From Chloroflexota bacterium (GTDB lineage Bacteria > Chloroflexota > Anaerolineae > Anaerolineales > UBA4823): 33,696 bases of DNA. The notes beneath the pieces are model-generated. The model was not told where the DNA came from and did not search any database. It worked only from the letters and a program-made list of their open reading frames with translations. This document shows positions 18,233 through 27,970 of the stretch, one piece after another. The position numbers and the translations under genes were made by a program. Each line of letters opens with the position of its first letter. The first letter of the stretch is position 1. The stretch is taken from positions 1 to 33,696 of the forward strand of contig JAAZNS010000475.1 of the NCBI GenBank assembly GCA_012798185.1. Reading direction: 5' to 3'.

Positions 18233-20164
18233 TCAGGGATAATTTTCCTGTGGAACTATTTTTTCATATTGATCTTCTAATGATGAAACATCGAATCCAT
18301 TATCTTTTAGGTGATTGAGTATTAAACGAAATGCTTCTGCATTCGTGATTATGCTTCTTTCCTGGCAAGGCGCTGAATAATCATCCACATTCCCCGATTC
18401 CAACTTGAATAACTGTAAATCGATGGAATACCATTTCTGACAATAAACCAAGCCAATTTTACCGATATGTTCAAAATATTTATCTTGTGTCTTTACAACG
18501 AAATATCCGGTTTCATCTCTTTCAACGTCCGAATTATTTATGATATATATAGGCCTTTGCGATATATCGTTTACTAATAATGAGTTTCCCGGCATCCAAA
18601 CCGGTTTTTCTAACCCCAAGAAATCGAGTATGGTAGGTGCAATATCTATACTTTGCACATTTGATTCGATTCTTCCAGCGTATTGTCCTTTAGGAAAATG
18701 AATTATCAATGGAATTCTCTTCCATCCAATATGTTTCTGACCATGATCACTGCTTATGATTATTATTGATTTATCAAAAAGGTCAAATTTTTTTAATATA
18801 TCGATGATATCACCAATTTGTTTATCGAACGACAAAATGCTGTCATCGTAAAAATCTGTGTTCCATTCTTCTTGAGTTTCAATGTCTTGGCCTAACGAGA
18901 ACACCTGTTGCTGGGGAGAGAACTTAGGTCCATGGGTTACCATAAAATGAATATGAATGAATAACGGTTTTTTAGATTTACGGATAAGTTTTTTAGTATT
19001 ATCAGTTTTCGTTTGGTCAACCATATTATCAGGAGGTTTCATTACTAAATCATATGGATTTTCCATAACGTTTATGTAAAAGATATGTTTTAGGCGGTCA
19101 AACAATCGATTACTGATTTCATAAATAAAATATGCAAAATCGGCGGGAATAAATTTATTAATTCTCAATAATCGATTTCGAATTTTCATTGTCCTTCCAT
19201 TTGCTTCATCGAATCCATCTAATAGATTTAATGTATAGGCATCGCCATAATGTGGAACACTCATTTGTACAGTATAGTATCCCTGAGCCCGTAAAATTCC
19301 GGGAAGATGTTGGTAAGCATCCTCTTCTTTTAGAATATCCGGCGGGTAAAGGACTCTTGTGCTTGTCGGGTATTTCCCGGTAAGGGCAGAGATCAATGAG
19401 CCAGGGGTGCTTGAAGAGTTAGCGAATGCATTTTCAGCCACCAAGGAAGTATCAGCAAGTTCTCGGAGGTGCGGCGTGGTATCACGTTCATAACCATATA
19501 CAGACATACTGGCTGCATTCACTCCATCACCGGTAATAAAAAATATATAAGGGTAATTCTCCAGAAGTTGTGCTGTTTCATTTTCCCCAGCCTTAATATT
19601 GAAATCGTTCGAAGATAATGGAATTAAGAACAGAATTACTATCGATCCTGTGAGAAGGATAAGGGCTGTCTTTTCTAAATCCCGTTTTCTTAAAAATCGA
19701 CTGACAATTGGCAGGATTTTCACAATATGCCTGTGTCCATAACCTAAAACGACTAAGTATCCCACTGCATATAAACCGCGAACAATCCCCTTTGATGTGA
19801 CAATACCAAAGTGGAAAATTGTATAAGTAAAATTATCCACCATCAGGAGGATCATGGACGCCAAAATACCGGCAGGCAAGAATGCACCAAGTTTTATAAA
19901 AACTTCATGATAATTAGATAACCAGGGAATTAAACCGAGTAAAACCAGGATAAGCAAAAATAAAATGCACACCACTGCAATGAGTGAACTTGAGAATAAA
20001 AGCACCTCAATTTTTTGGGAGAACGTCAGGATGCTCAACGAAGATGGCTTTGTAATAAAAAATAACCATTCCATGAAAATATAAACCAATCCAGCAATAA
20101 TGGTATAAATAAACAAACTGCTCCATGAATTTAAAATCCGATTTGTTTTAGATTTTCGAGGCAT
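18233..20164 (-). CDS. Membrane-anchored alkaline-phosphatase-superfamily (sulfatase-like) protein
   Basis: 643 aa; N-terminal TM segments; FITGDGVNAASMSVYGYERDTTPHLREL, NSSSTPGSLISALTGKYPTSTRV, IIIISSDHGQKHIGWKRIPLIIHFP. Confidence 0.88.
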   Translation of the reverse strand: MPRKSKTNRILNSWSSLFIYTIIAGLVYIFMEWLFFITKPSSLSILTFSQKIEVLLFSSSLIAVVCILFLLILVLLGLIPWLSNYHEVFIKLGAFLPAGILASMILLMVDNFTYTIFHFGIVTSKGIVRGLYAVGYLVVLGYGHRHIVKILPIVSRFLRKRDLEKTALILLTGSIVILFLIPLSSNDFNIKAGENETAQLLENYPYIFFITGDGVNAASMSVYGYERDTTPHLRELADTSLVAENAFANSSSTPGSLISALTGKYPTSTRVLYPPDILKEEDAYQHLPGILRAQGYYTVQMSVPHYGDAYTLNLLDGFDEANGRTMKIRNRLLRINKFIPADFAYFIYEISNRLFDRLKHIFYINVMENPYDLVMKPPDNMVDQTKTDNTKKLIRKSKKPLFIHIHFMVTHGPKFSPQQQVFSLGQDIETQEEWNTDFYDDSILSFDKQIGDIIDILKKFDLFDKSIIIISSDHGQKHIGWKRIPLIIHFPKGQYAGRIESNVQSIDIAPTILDFLGLEKPVWMPGNSLLVNDISQRPIYIINNSDVERDETGYFVVKTQDKYFEHIGKIGLVYCQKWYSIDLQLFKLESGNVDDYSAPCQERSIITNAEAFRLILNHLKDNGFDVSSLEDQYEKIVPQENYP

Positions 20165-20206
20165 AAATTGACTTATAGAAATTAGTTTCGAATATTGATG
20201 GATGGG

Positions 20207-21595
20207 TCATTCTTTGGAAAACCAGTAGATGGTTCTACAGGTTCCCGGGATGGGAATCTGTTTTTGAAGAGTGAAATCATGTGTAAAGGCTTGTACAAAA
20301 CCTTCGATCGAATAATCTTTGAAAATATCCTGGCGAGAAGCAAGTAATTTCTTCACCTGGCTGTCTTCCTTCGGTACAAATTCAATAATAAGATTCTTCC
20401 CCAACGAAGCGAAAGTATGGGCAATATCTCGCAATGGGACATTGTTAGAAATCGCCAGGTGATGGATCAAAGCCAGGGCAAGCAAAAGGTCGACTGGTGC
20501 ACGACGGAAAAACGACTGCCGTTCGGTGTTCGACCAACCAATGGCGGGAGAAGGGTTGGCGAGATCGATCAACAAAGGCAATATATTTTTTATTTTTGCT
20601 TTCTTACTTTCCAGGTAGTTTAATTCTACGGCTCCCGGGTCGATATCTGTGGATATGATTTGACAGTCTTCGATATCCTTCCCTAAACGACTAAATTCAC
20701 CAGTATTTGCTCCAAGATCTAAAATTGATTGTGGGGCAAGATCTTGGATAAGGCGGTATACGATTTGCTTTTTTTGTTCAAAGGCTTCTTTTGAATAATT
20801 CGTTTCCTGATAATAATTAACCCAATCGGTATCGCTGGCTTTCCAAGTAAGTTTTTTTACGATCCTTGCAAGGCTTTCGATTAACCCCATCATGGCTTCT
20901 TTTCTCATCCGAATGTTTTTCTTTGCTGACGCCCCAGTTGGTGCAGAATAACGCTTTTGAGCATAAGCGTGCATGTGTATATGGGTGAGTATGCCCCCTT
21001 TTGTCCATGATGAGCGGGGCAGTAATTTACTGGCGAGATCAAGCGGGATGCCATCGATGTAAATTTGTAGCAATTTATTCAAGCGGATATCTGCCAAACT
21101 CATTAAAGCCAATGGGGCAAGAAAGTGCTGACAAAATTGGCGGTAAGCAACCCAGGGTTGTCCCTCGATATATCTTGTGAAGCTGAGGGTATCGATTAGG
21201 ATTGGCGATCCATGATGAAATTGGATATTATAAGCGCTGGCATCTTTCAGGATCATGCCTGATTGAAGGGCTGTTTTTTGAATTCTAAGAGTCTGCAGGG
21301 CAGCATCTTTTAATTGGGAAAAGGACCATTCATAAGGATAAGAAATGAAATTGACCTTTTGCGGAAGAATGATCTTATACGCGAGGTCCGGTACACATGC
21401 AGGCACATCCGATTCTTGATGAGGAAGCAGCATCTGCTTTTGAACCAGCTTTTCGTAAAGGCCACAAGACATCAACAGGTCATAATCGTCTTTATAGCAT
21501 GAATTGACCTGCCGGAATATTTGATCGTTCCGTTGAAAAAGAAAACCGCTTGGGTCACGAAAGGATGGCGCTAGTTTTTCAGTTGTCGAATTCAT
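20207..21595 (-). CDS. Class I SAM-dependent methyltransferase with N-terminal kinase-like region
   Basis: SILDLGANTGEFSRLG motif I; N-terminal GMILKDASAYNIQFHHGSPILIDTLSF. The ORF is called from 21634, but MNSTTEKLAP at 21595 is the likelier start. Confidence 0.85.
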   Translation of the reverse strand: MNSTTEKLAPSFRDPSGFLFQRNDQIFRQVNSCYKDDYDLLMSCGLYEKLVQKQMLLPHQESDVPACVPDLAYKIILPQKVNFISYPYEWSFSQLKDAALQTLRIQKTALQSGMILKDASAYNIQFHHGSPILIDTLSFTRYIEGQPWVAYRQFCQHFLAPLALMSLADIRLNKLLQIYIDGIPLDLASKLLPRSSWTKGGILTHIHMHAYAQKRYSAPTGASAKKNIRMRKEAMMGLIESLARIVKKLTWKASDTDWVNYYQETNYSKEAFEQKKQIVYRLIQDLAPQSILDLGANTGEFSRLGKDIEDCQIISTDIDPGAVELNYLESKKAKIKNILPLLIDLANPSPAIGWSNTERQSFFRRAPVDLLLALALIHHLAISNNVPLRDIAHTFASLGKNLIIEFVPKEDSQVKKLLASRQDIFKDYSIEGFVQAFTHDFTLQKQIPIPGTCRTIYWFSKE

Positions 21596-21758
21596 CGGGA
21601 GAAATATTATCGTCTTCGGTTTCAGCGGAGTCAATTGGGTTCTTTGTACCTAAGGAAGTAATTTTCTTCCAAATAATTCTAACGATAACACCAATACCCA
21701 ATAAACCTGCCAGAATTGTTTGTAATAGGACACTGCCTGAACCGGGATCAAGATACAT
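21579..21758 (-). CDS. 59-aa single-pass membrane protein, not in the ORF track
   Basis: Translated by hand: MYLDPGSGSVLLQTILAGLLGIGVIVRIIWKKITSLGTKNPIDSAETEDDNISPDEFDN*. It overlaps the methyltransferase start. Confidence 0.85.
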   Translation of the reverse strand: MYLDPGSGSVLLQTILAGLLGIGVIVRIIWKKITSLGTKNPIDSAETEDDNISPDEFDN

Positions 21759-21881
21759 GATAATTACCCTTTGAATGAACTTGAAATTATAGATTTTCGA
21801 ACAAAAATCCCTTAAAATCTCATTTGGGATAAATTATAACATCTAACTTATTTATCCTTTTTGACTTTAGCGATGATTGTC

Positions 21882-22574
21882 TCACCACCCCTCATTCTTC
21901 CAACCCCATTTACCTCGCAGGGGGACGAAAGCAACCGGCGTAAGCTCCTCGCTGACAAATTGATCACCTTGGCGGTACCAGCGTTCCAAGAGCTGGTAGG
22001 AAGGTCCCCCTACCGGAATGACCAGCCTGCCGTCCTGATCAAGCTGATCGAGCAATACCTGCGGTACTTTTGGGGCTGCAGCAGTGACAATGATTGCCTG
22101 AAAAGGCGCTTTATCGGGCAATCCCAGTGAACCATCGCCAACCACCACATGCACGTTCTGATAACCTAGGGATTGCAGAACGCTTTCTGCCTGCTGGGCT
22201 AGGCTGGCATGGCGTTCGATGGTATACACCTGACGCGCAAGCTGCCCGAGGATGGCTGCCTGGTAACCGGAACCTGTGCCTACTTCCAACACATTTTCCC
22301 CGCCCTTAAGATTCAGCATTTGCGTCATCAAAGCCACAATATAAGGTTGAGAAATCGTTTGCCCGCAGCCAATGGGCAATGGGCCGTCCACATACGCCAG
22401 GTGACGATGCTCTTCGGAAACAAAGCGGTGACGCGGAACTGCGCTCATGGCTTCCAAGACACGCGGATCGCGAATATCCCGCTTGCGCAGATGATCTTCG
22501 ATCATCCGCTGCCATTCCACCTGGTATTCGCTATCCGTTAATTCATTCAACTTGCGTTTTCTCTTCCGGAACAT
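21882..22574 (-). CDS. pcm: Protein-L-isoaspartate O-methyltransferase
   Basis: VPRHRFVSEEHRHLAYVDGPLPIGCGQTISQPYIVALMTQML, NVLEVGTGSGYQAAIL. ORF given from 22655; the internal MFRKRKRK start at 22574 is preferred. Confidence 0.94.
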   Translation of the reverse strand: MFRKRKRKLNELTDSEYQVEWQRMIEDHLRKRDIRDPRVLEAMSAVPRHRFVSEEHRHLAYVDGPLPIGCGQTISQPYIVALMTQMLNLKGGENVLEVGTGSGYQAAILGQLARQVYTIERHASLAQQAESVLQSLGYQNVHVVVGDGSLGLPDKAPFQAIIVTAAAPKVPQVLLDQLDQDGRLVIPVGGPSYQLLERWYRQGDQFVSEELTPVAFVPLRGKWGWKNEGW

Positions 22575-22746
22575 GCTTTCCTTGATTCCATCAGATATCA
22601 TTCCGGTATGATCAGCGAATATTCTCCACGATATAAAGGTGCTTTGTAAGCTCAAATTTACAGTTTGCAGTCATTTCAAGCACTGCAGCATTAGCGCCGT
22701 TGCAGATAATGGCAACGGATCGAGTATGCGAAAAAACCCTTCAGGA

Positions 22747-26440: not shown

Positions 26441-27970
26441 TTACGGTTCGAATTCGATCAGCATAAAAGGCTGTTTGGGGAAATAGAGATACGCTTTGCG
26501 TTCAGGGAATGCCCGGGCAACGGCGGTATTCTCCTTTTCCCCCTTATTGATAACAAAGATGAACGGTGTATCCAGGAAGGCGTCTTGCAGCTCCAGCAGG
26601 GCGCCGTATTCAGTCCATTTATTGGGGTAGACAATCACCAATGCAGGGGTGAGTGCCCGGGCTTGTTCGGTGTAGAAAGGTTTAAGTCGTTCGCGGGTCA
26701 CGCCGTATAAACCGTACATGCTTTGCAGGCGCTGAGGGGTGTAATAAAGCAAGTTGACACTTACAAAAAAAACGACCACCAGCAAAGTGGAAAAGAGCCG
26801 CAGCCGGCGCCAGAGGTTATGCCGCGGAAGAATGTCATCAGGATACAACCGCCAGCCTGCCAGCCAGACGATACCCGCCGCACTGAGGATGGTCAATGAG
26901 AACAAGCCTTCGTAATAATAGCGCGGACCATACAGGTTTGCGCCAATCCAGTAAAAAATATACACAAACACCAGGCTGGGGAAAACAGCAATGGCGGGCA
27001 AAGCTTTCCAATTGCGTTTATGCAGCAGCGCCGCCAATCCAAAAGGCAGGAATAGCCACGAAGCCTTGAACCAGCCGAACAGATCTGTATAACCAACCCG
27101 CAGACTGAAACGGGTGTTGATCCTGGCAGAATGCAGTGTGTGACCGCCTTCTGCCCTGCCAAAACCTTCGCCAAAACCAACCTTATCGTATTGCCACCAC
27201 AATGTGTAGGGATTTAATAATGGATCGCCGGTGACGGCTGCCTGCCATAGGAAGAGTAATCCGGTGAATGCCAGCACCGCCAGGCAGTAGATAACCAGAC
27301 GCAGGCGATTTTTGTTCCCGCCTTGCACGAAAAGGTAAAGCCCGTGCAGGGCAAACGGTAATGACACTCCCACGGCAGTGAGCGGGCGGGTAAGAATAAG
27401 CAACCCCAGCGATATGGCTGAGACGGTCGGTGGCAGCCACCGCCATCGCTCTGGCAATGGGCTGGTTTCCGCTGGTTGCCAGGAATCCAACCAGCCCAAA
27501 ACGAAGGTCAGGCTGAGGAACAATCCAAAAGGGTGGGAGAGCAGCGAACCGGAGTTCATCAAGAAAAACGGGGAAACGAGCGTGAGTCCGGCAGCGAGCA
27601 ACCCTACAATAGGGCTGAACAAACGCTTGCCCAGGCGGTAGGTGAGCCACACACCTGCGCCAGCCAGCAGCGGATTGACCCAGCTCCGTGCATTCAAGAT
27701 CAATCCCAGTGCCAGCATAGCAGGCCAGCCGGGAGGATATTTACCAAAACGCTGCCCTTTGTAATCGACGACAAATGGCGTTAAGAAGGATTCGGGATAA
27801 GGCGGCGATGGCAAAGTCAGATGACCCCTGGCAATTGCCTGTGCCTGCCAGACATATGCCATTTCATCTTCCAAATGCGCCATCTGCTCGAAGATGCGGG
27901 AAGCCACAAAATAGCCTGCCAGTAAACCCAGCAGGCTAAAGCTTAATGCAATGCGGTCATAACGGGTCAT
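26441..27970 (-). CDS. Multi-TM glycosyltransferase (GT39/ArnT-like family)
   Basis: 509 aa polytopic; HLEDEMAYVWQAQAIARGHLTLPSPPYPESF N-terminal loop with acidic residues, KYPPGWPAMLALG. Confidence 0.8.
   Translation of the reverse strand: MTRYDRIALSFSLLGLLAGYFVASRIFEQMAHLEDEMAYVWQAQAIARGHLTLPSPPYPESFLTPFVVDYKGQRFGKYPPGWPAMLALGLILNARSWVNPLLAGAGVWLTYRLGKRLFSPIVGLLAAGLTLVSPFFLMNSGSLLSHPFGLFLSLTFVLGWLDSWQPAETSPLPERWRWLPPTVSAISLGLLILTRPLTAVGVSLPFALHGLYLFVQGGNKNRLRLVIYCLAVLAFTGLLFLWQAAVTGDPLLNPYTLWWQYDKVGFGEGFGRAEGGHTLHSARINTRFSLRVGYTDLFGWFKASWLFLPFGLAALLHKRNWKALPAIAVFPSLVFVYIFYWIGANLYGPRYYYEGLFSLTILSAAGIVWLAGWRLYPDDILPRHNLWRRLRLFSTLLVVVFFVSVNLLYYTPQRLQSMYGLYGVTRERLKPFYTEQARALTPALVIVYPNKWTEYGALLELQDAFLDTPFIFVINKGEKENTAVARAFPERKAYLYFPKQPFMLIEFEP

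Follow-up and report, generated by a model that had tools for sequence, protein, structure and literature searches.

A 33,696-nucleotide stretch of DNA from a Chloroflexota bacterium (assembly GCA_012798185.1, contig JAAZNS010000475.1; hereafter, the window) carries three genes that encode a 59-residue membrane protein, a kinase-like/methyltransferase fusion homologous to the nodulation protein NoeA, and a membrane enzyme of the alkaline phosphatase (AP) superfamily. We judge the chances somewhat better than even that these genes form a NoeA/NoeB-type decoration cassette, in three parts, for an envelope or secreted glycan or glycolipid. The probable outcome would be the addition of phosphate and methyl groups to a glycan that is secreted or lies on the cell surface. 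The locus has the following components:

21579..21758, minus strand: small open reading frame (ORF; MYLDPGSGS...), 59 amino acids, a predicted bitopic membrane protein
21767..21772, minus strand: AAAGGG, resembling a ribosome-binding site, 8 nt 5' of the ATG of the small ORF, as read from the sequence
20207..21595, minus strand: NoeA-family bifunctional gene, 462 amino acids counted from the ATG (alternative start, TTG at 21634)
20831..21595, minus strand: kinase-like region of the NoeA-family protein (approximate), placed by secondary-structure order, invariant residues and the family assignment in PMC9758233
20210..20830, minus strand: methyltransferase domain of the NoeA-family protein (approximate), placed by Pfam, structure model and Foldseek
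21579..21595, minus strand: overlap of the small ORF end with the NoeA-family gene start, 17 nt
18233..20164, minus strand: membrane AP-superfamily enzyme, 643 amino acids
19613..20155, minus strand: N-terminal helical region of the AP gene with about five transmembrane (TM) helices, placed by structure model and TM prediction
18569..19558, minus strand: AP-superfamily catalytic domain, with Thr253 at the nucleophile position and Asp213, His411, Asp473 and His474 as likely metal/active-site residues

An earlier note, made from the letters of the window, had described three consecutive minus-strand genes, an overlap between the small ORF stop and the methyltransferase start, and about 40 nt between the methyltransferase and AP genes. 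All three ORFs were confirmed at the positions given above. The ATG of the NoeA-family gene falls within the last 17 nt of the small ORF (ATGAATTCGACAACTGA), and 42 nt (20206..20165) separate the NoeA-family gene from the AP gene.

The second gene product is 34.6% identical to annotated NoeA of Sinorhizobium meliloti (plasmid pSymA) over 97% of its length (E 8e-67), and profile A2, which represents the window methyltransferase family, detects NoeA at 2.8e-114. By these matches, it is a NoeA-family protein. Its C-terminal part is a class I S-adenosylmethionine (SAM) methyltransferase with a DLGANTG motif at residues 293-299. Methyltransf_23 was matched in 20 of 23 family members and Methyltransf_12 in 15, and the Pfam methyltransferase match of the window protein itself lies below the curated cut-off. 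The best 50 Foldseek matches of the whole protein are all methyltransferases. In the N-terminal part, Arg28, Asp118, Asn123 and Asp135 (30, 120, 125 and 137 in A2 numbering) are invariant in 23 relatives. This set fits a kinase active site of the form D...N...D, with Arg in place of Lys, and the order of strands and helices in the structure model (predicted local distance difference test, pLDDT, 85.8) also fits a kinase. These data support the kinase-like/methyltransferase reading that had been proposed for this gene.

To examine conservation, loci were gathered with the small protein and, separately, with the methyltransferase, and near-identical copies were removed, leaving 77 distinct loci. 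The small protein adjoins the methyltransferase in 75 of them; of the two exceptions, one has an incomplete methyltransferase and the other a highly divergent one. An AP-superfamily gene lies within 1 kb in 54 of the 77 loci (36 on the same strand, 18 on the opposite strand), as identified by profile searches, with counts that depend on profile thresholds; in divergent lineages, AP genes were called from their alignment to profile A1 and a DHG motif, and at least one such protein (L134) has no Pfam sulfatase match. Of the loci found through the methyltransferase alone, which are unbiased with regard to neighbors, 49 of 51 have the small protein and 32 of 51 have an AP gene within 1 kb. A scripted position test placed the small gene upstream of the methyltransferase in 69 loci and downstream in 6, at least one of which (L117) looks like a parsing artefact, as a profile search puts its small gene upstream. 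In relatives, the median distance from the small ORF stop to the SFRDP segment of the methyltransferase is 30 nt. Given these adjacencies, and a background that amounts to 0-20 PF00884 matches in the complete genomes of relatives, a chance neighborhood was rejected as an explanation.

The pair of small protein and methyltransferase was seen in six groups, i.e., Chloroflexota, Bacteroidota, Planctomycetota, Gemmatimonadota, a Deltaproteobacterium and Alphaproteobacteria. Outside Chloroflexota, the sampling covered plasmids and a single scan of genome contigs. The named carriers outside Chloroflexota are a Bacteroidetes metagenome-assembled genome (MAG; L025), a Singulisphaera plasmid, Gemmatirosa, Deltaproteobacterium Smac51, Sinorhizobium, Rhizobium and Novosphingobium, and every one has an AP-superfamily gene beside the pair. 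In Rhizobium sp. T1473, the order is nodL, small gene, methyltransferase, AP. In Novosphingobium, the trio lies beside polysaccharide export, glycosyltransferase and mannose-1-phosphate genes; in one locus of this polysaccharide region (L132, 5756-5983), a divergent small protein (AHAYLDAASASLALQ) is encoded 5' of the NoeA homolog. Thus, the coupled module suggested in the earlier note is well supported by adjacency and by an order kept across six phyla. The note had named a lack of conserved co-occurrence as grounds for refutation, and such a lack was not seen. The co-occurrence is not equally strict for all three families, however. The pair is nearly constant, whereas orthologs of the window AP adjoin it in only 6 of the 77 loci (window included), the place being taken elsewhere by NoeB-like or other AP-superfamily enzymes; strict co-occurrence with an orthologous AP was therefore rejected. 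Since the module spans Chloroflexota to Planctomycetota, the chemistry of NoeA and NoeB would belong to general envelope/glycan biology rather than being an invention of symbiosis, and would be accessible to study in systems without a plant host.

The small protein, near-universal beside the NoeA-type enzyme, gave no meaningful match in Pfam or NCBIfam, which makes it a concrete missing component of the system; a search of the literature for the DPGSGS motif returned nothing. The motif Y[LIVM]DPxx[GA][SG] is present in 77 of 77 family matches. These share a single 20-residue hydrophobic stretch, with a net charge of -1 and no Lys or Arg on the motif side and a mean of 5 Lys/Arg residues after the TM segment. 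Ala occupies position -1 of the motif in 29 of the 77, as after a signal peptide, and a hydrophobic stretch lies 5' of the motif in 37. The window protein has one TM segment (residues 7-30), with the N-terminus predicted outside and a basic cytosolic tail. Because Lys/Arg residues follow the TM segment and are missing from the outer motif, the positive-inside rule places the N-terminus outside; judged from the sequence, a bitopic membrane subunit in this orientation is the most likely form of the protein. The strongest conservation is found in the outer YxDPxxG motif and the TM segment, not in the inner tail. A comparison with sister genome L019 (differences at the three codon positions, 14/9/35) gave a proportion of nonsynonymous differences (pN) of 0.21 versus 0.77 for synonymous differences (pS), so the small ORF is under purifying selection.

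The best sequence match of the window AP is the generic PF00884 (E 1e-35). Helices in its structure model (4-38, 48-78, 83-117, 127-158 and 161-184) correspond to about five N-terminal TM helices. In ten aligned relatives, the nucleophile position is Thr in six and Ser in four, with no sulfatase Arg, and the window sequence is T-P-G-S. A role as a formylglycine sulfatase was rejected, as the C/S-x-P-x-R nucleophile motif is absent; the Thr/Ser position together with the missing Arg argues for phospho-chemistry. Foldseek matches of the model include sulfatases, PbgA and EptA. Like EptA, LtaS and PbgA, the window enzyme would have about five TM helices followed by an AP domain with a Thr/Ser nucleophile position, as seen in a model of moderate confidence. 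Unlike EptA and LtaS, it falls far under the curated NCBIfam cut-offs for those families (27 vs 970 bits for LtaS, and 24 vs 561 bits for EptA). NoeB matches the c1 profile A1 (1.8e-15) and the window AP matches its own profile A4, the superfamily alone being common to both; by these profiles, the window AP is not orthologous to NoeB and belongs to a different subfamily. Most neighboring APs across loci belong to the A1 profile, like NoeB. NoeB, the window AP and most neighboring APs match PF00884 with Thr/Ser, not Cys, at the nucleophile. We refer to the window as a variant because the AP position is filled by different subfamilies in different lineages. Two further arrangements of window-type APs were observed. 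A same-genus genome (L019, 7587-11499) has two tandem copies, 57% and 55% identical to the window AP, and in L129 (3378-7022) a window-type AP domain is fused behind a GT4 glycosyltransferase in a single 1215-residue ORF.

The earlier note knew of no described function for this gene combination, but a noeA/noeB-type cassette is on record in S. meliloti, where noeA and noeB have counted among the nodulation genes that affect host range since 1995 and were reported to share a single operon with nodL (Ardourel 1995, cited by PMC9758233 and PMC9048898). NoeA and NoeB are hypothesized to modify Nod factors (PMC9048898), and a natural truncation of noeA accompanies poor or lost nodulation on some Medicago genotypes (PMC4053727). 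The gene order on pSymA is nodL, a 71-residue "hypothetical protein", noeA and noeB. The hypothetical protein reads ...SIVPAHAYLDPGTGSMLVQ..., with the motif YLDPGTGS, and is of the same family as the small protein of the window. Thus, the S. meliloti operon (nod box n5, pSymA) resembles the window in that genes for the small protein, NoeA and an AP enzyme follow one another in this order on a single strand, and in the overlap between the small ORF and noeA. It differs in that the window NoeA homolog is 34.6% identical, the AP is of another subfamily, nodL is not a neighbor, and the host is a Chloroflexota MAG. In L045 (6387-8048), the N-terminus of NoeB has a YIDP-like segment, YIDPRSDAGYAV, followed by a hydrophobic stretch, similar to the small protein. 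It might be a fused version of that protein, but the likeness could be due to chance and carries no weight in the present argument.

A 2022 survey of the Legionella kinome (PMC9758233) had already described the family of NoeA and NoeB together with its conserved neighborhood. According to this survey, Lani_1194, like NoeA, is a kinase plus methyltransferase, its N-terminal domain is assigned a kinase fold, and Lani_1195, like NoeB, is an AP-fold neighbor; the fusion with its AP-fold neighbor resembles the window genes. Lani_1193 is a further conserved neighbor, present in 65% of 816 neighborhoods, which may or may not correspond to the small protein. In contrast to the reading developed here, Lani_1192-1195 are treated there as possible effectors. 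A second relevant protein is WbdD, the terminator of the Escherichia coli O9a O-antigen, which is a kinase-methyltransferase that makes a methyl-phosphate on a polyprenol-linked glycan (PMC3482155). WbdD combines a kinase and a SAM methyltransferase in one protein, as proposed for the window fusion, and acts on a membrane-linked glycan. However, its order is methyltransferase, kinase, coiled coil, whereas in the window the kinase-like region precedes the methyltransferase; because of this difference, we regard WbdD as a likeness and not as a member of the same group. In addition, PMC3482155 describes no small protein or AP partner for WbdD, and its structural match to the window protein is only of methyltransferase length.

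In the proposed mechanism, the soluble kinase-like/SAM-methyltransferase would phosphorylate and/or methylate a membrane-linked glycan or lipid at the inner face of the membrane. By analogy with WbdD, the product could plausibly be a methyl-phosphate. The 59-residue protein would cross the membrane once, with YLDPGSGS outside and the basic tail inside, and may recruit the soluble enzyme to the membrane and couple it to the outside, possibly within a physical complex. The multi-TM AP enzyme, with its putative Thr nucleophile, would then hydrolyze or transfer the phospho-group on the same product at the outer face, after membrane crossing. The target of the module may be a glycan, a lipid or a phosphodiester, as had been suggested earlier. 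A glycan context is provided by the polysaccharide genes in Novosphingobium, the GT4 fusion and a Gfo/Idh oxidoreductase that neighbors the L020-type loci.

Several observations weigh against this model. The substrates and activities given to NoeA, NoeB and the small protein are proposals. The kinase-like domain has no Pfam match in the 23 family members, no kinase is found among the best 50 Foldseek matches of the whole protein, and WbdD was matched over only 210 columns; the kinase assignment thus rests on the motif, the strand/helix order and the published assignment. The AP model has a pLDDT of 69, i.e., moderate confidence only. No AP gene was found within 1 kb in 23 of the 77 loci (about 30%), some of which (e.g., L094 and L115) sit at contig ends, and in L020, L022 and L023 the small gene is 3' of the methyltransferase and no AP was found. 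The flanks of the window (a protein-repair methyltransferase and an imidazolonepropionase) offer no glycan context. Finally, paralogous small proteins precede AP-superfamily proteins that have no predicted TM segment, and the AP enzyme need therefore not be extracytoplasmic in all systems.

These paralogs came from a search of 350 Chloroflexota genomes with the small protein, in which 45 of 54 matches adjoin the methyltransferase. Eight of the other nine are beside an AP-superfamily gene: six directly 5' of a gene for a PF01663-type enzyme (four partners confirmed by Pfam, two by near-identical N-termini), one adjacent to a PF00884-type enzyme, and the last with a c1-type AP as its neighbor on the opposite strand. 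The paralogs suggest either that the small protein is linked to AP-superfamily enzymes independently of the methyltransferase or that it serves more generally to bring a soluble enzyme to the membrane. Accordingly, the small protein could be chiefly a partner or activator of AP-superfamily enzymes, with the methyltransferase as an optional client and the cassette as an AP system with an added NoeA-type modifier. The conservation of the outer motif and TM segment over the inner tail also favors this possibility, which we nevertheless consider rather unlikely: most matches across the phylum adjoin the methyltransferase, several pairs have no nearby AP, and three PF01663 partners that were checked have no predicted TM segment and thus would not share the compartment of the outer motif. 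A related proposal, to which we give a little less than even credence, is that the YxDPxxG[S/G] proteins make up a family, widespread but without a name, of membrane subunits working with AP-superfamily enzymes in at least two unrelated settings, the NoeA-type cassettes and the methyltransferase-free PF01663 loci. If so, the classical nodL-noeA-noeB operon of S. meliloti would hold an overlooked fourth functional gene.

Two other explanations concern the AP enzyme and the target. The AP varies more in its presence than the pair does, genes closely related to the window AP are located elsewhere in genomes G004, G009, G013 and G031, and the window-type AP is tandemly duplicated in the same-genus genome G001. 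From these facts, it could be argued that the AP is a catabolic sulfatase or phosphodiesterase placed behind the pair by local accident and that the unit consists of the small protein and the methyltransferase only. This is improbable: in six phyla and many genera the position is repeatedly filled by AP genes, which come from several distinct subfamilies, while PF00884 matches number 0-20 per genome. Moreover, the window AP lacks the sulfatase motif, and noeA and noeB were reported as a single operon. It is also conceivable that the target of the module is not a surface polymer but a lipid or a small signal that is secreted, in line with the proposal for Nod factors; the position of the genes in the nodL operon and the nodulation loss that goes with noeA truncation are consistent with such a role. 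Yet, the Novosphingobium trio lies in a polysaccharide region, a GT4 glycosyltransferase is joined to a window-type AP domain in L129, and Chloroflexota and Planctomycetota are not known to produce Nod factors. We regard a secreted signal as very improbable and retain the decoration of an envelope or secreted glycan or glycolipid as the preferred reading.

Additional features were noted in the paralogous loci and in the rest of the window. The six Chloroflexota loci L135, L137, L138, L139, L141 and L142 have solo YIDPxTGG proteins encoded directly 5' of a phosphodiesterase-like PF01663 gene whose product has no predicted TM segment, and several solo YIDPxTGG loci cluster with Tat-signal sulfatase-like, sulfotransferase and phosphoglycerate-mutase-like genes. 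Promoter scans gave results at chance level. The gene 5' of the cassette (21882-22655) is, by sequence reading, a protein-L-isoaspartate methyltransferase, and no nodL is found there. With no evident tie to the cassette, the region at 26441-27970 encodes a membrane protein with weak similarity to STT3/PMT_2-type glycosyltransferases and adjoins an inositol-monophosphatase gene.

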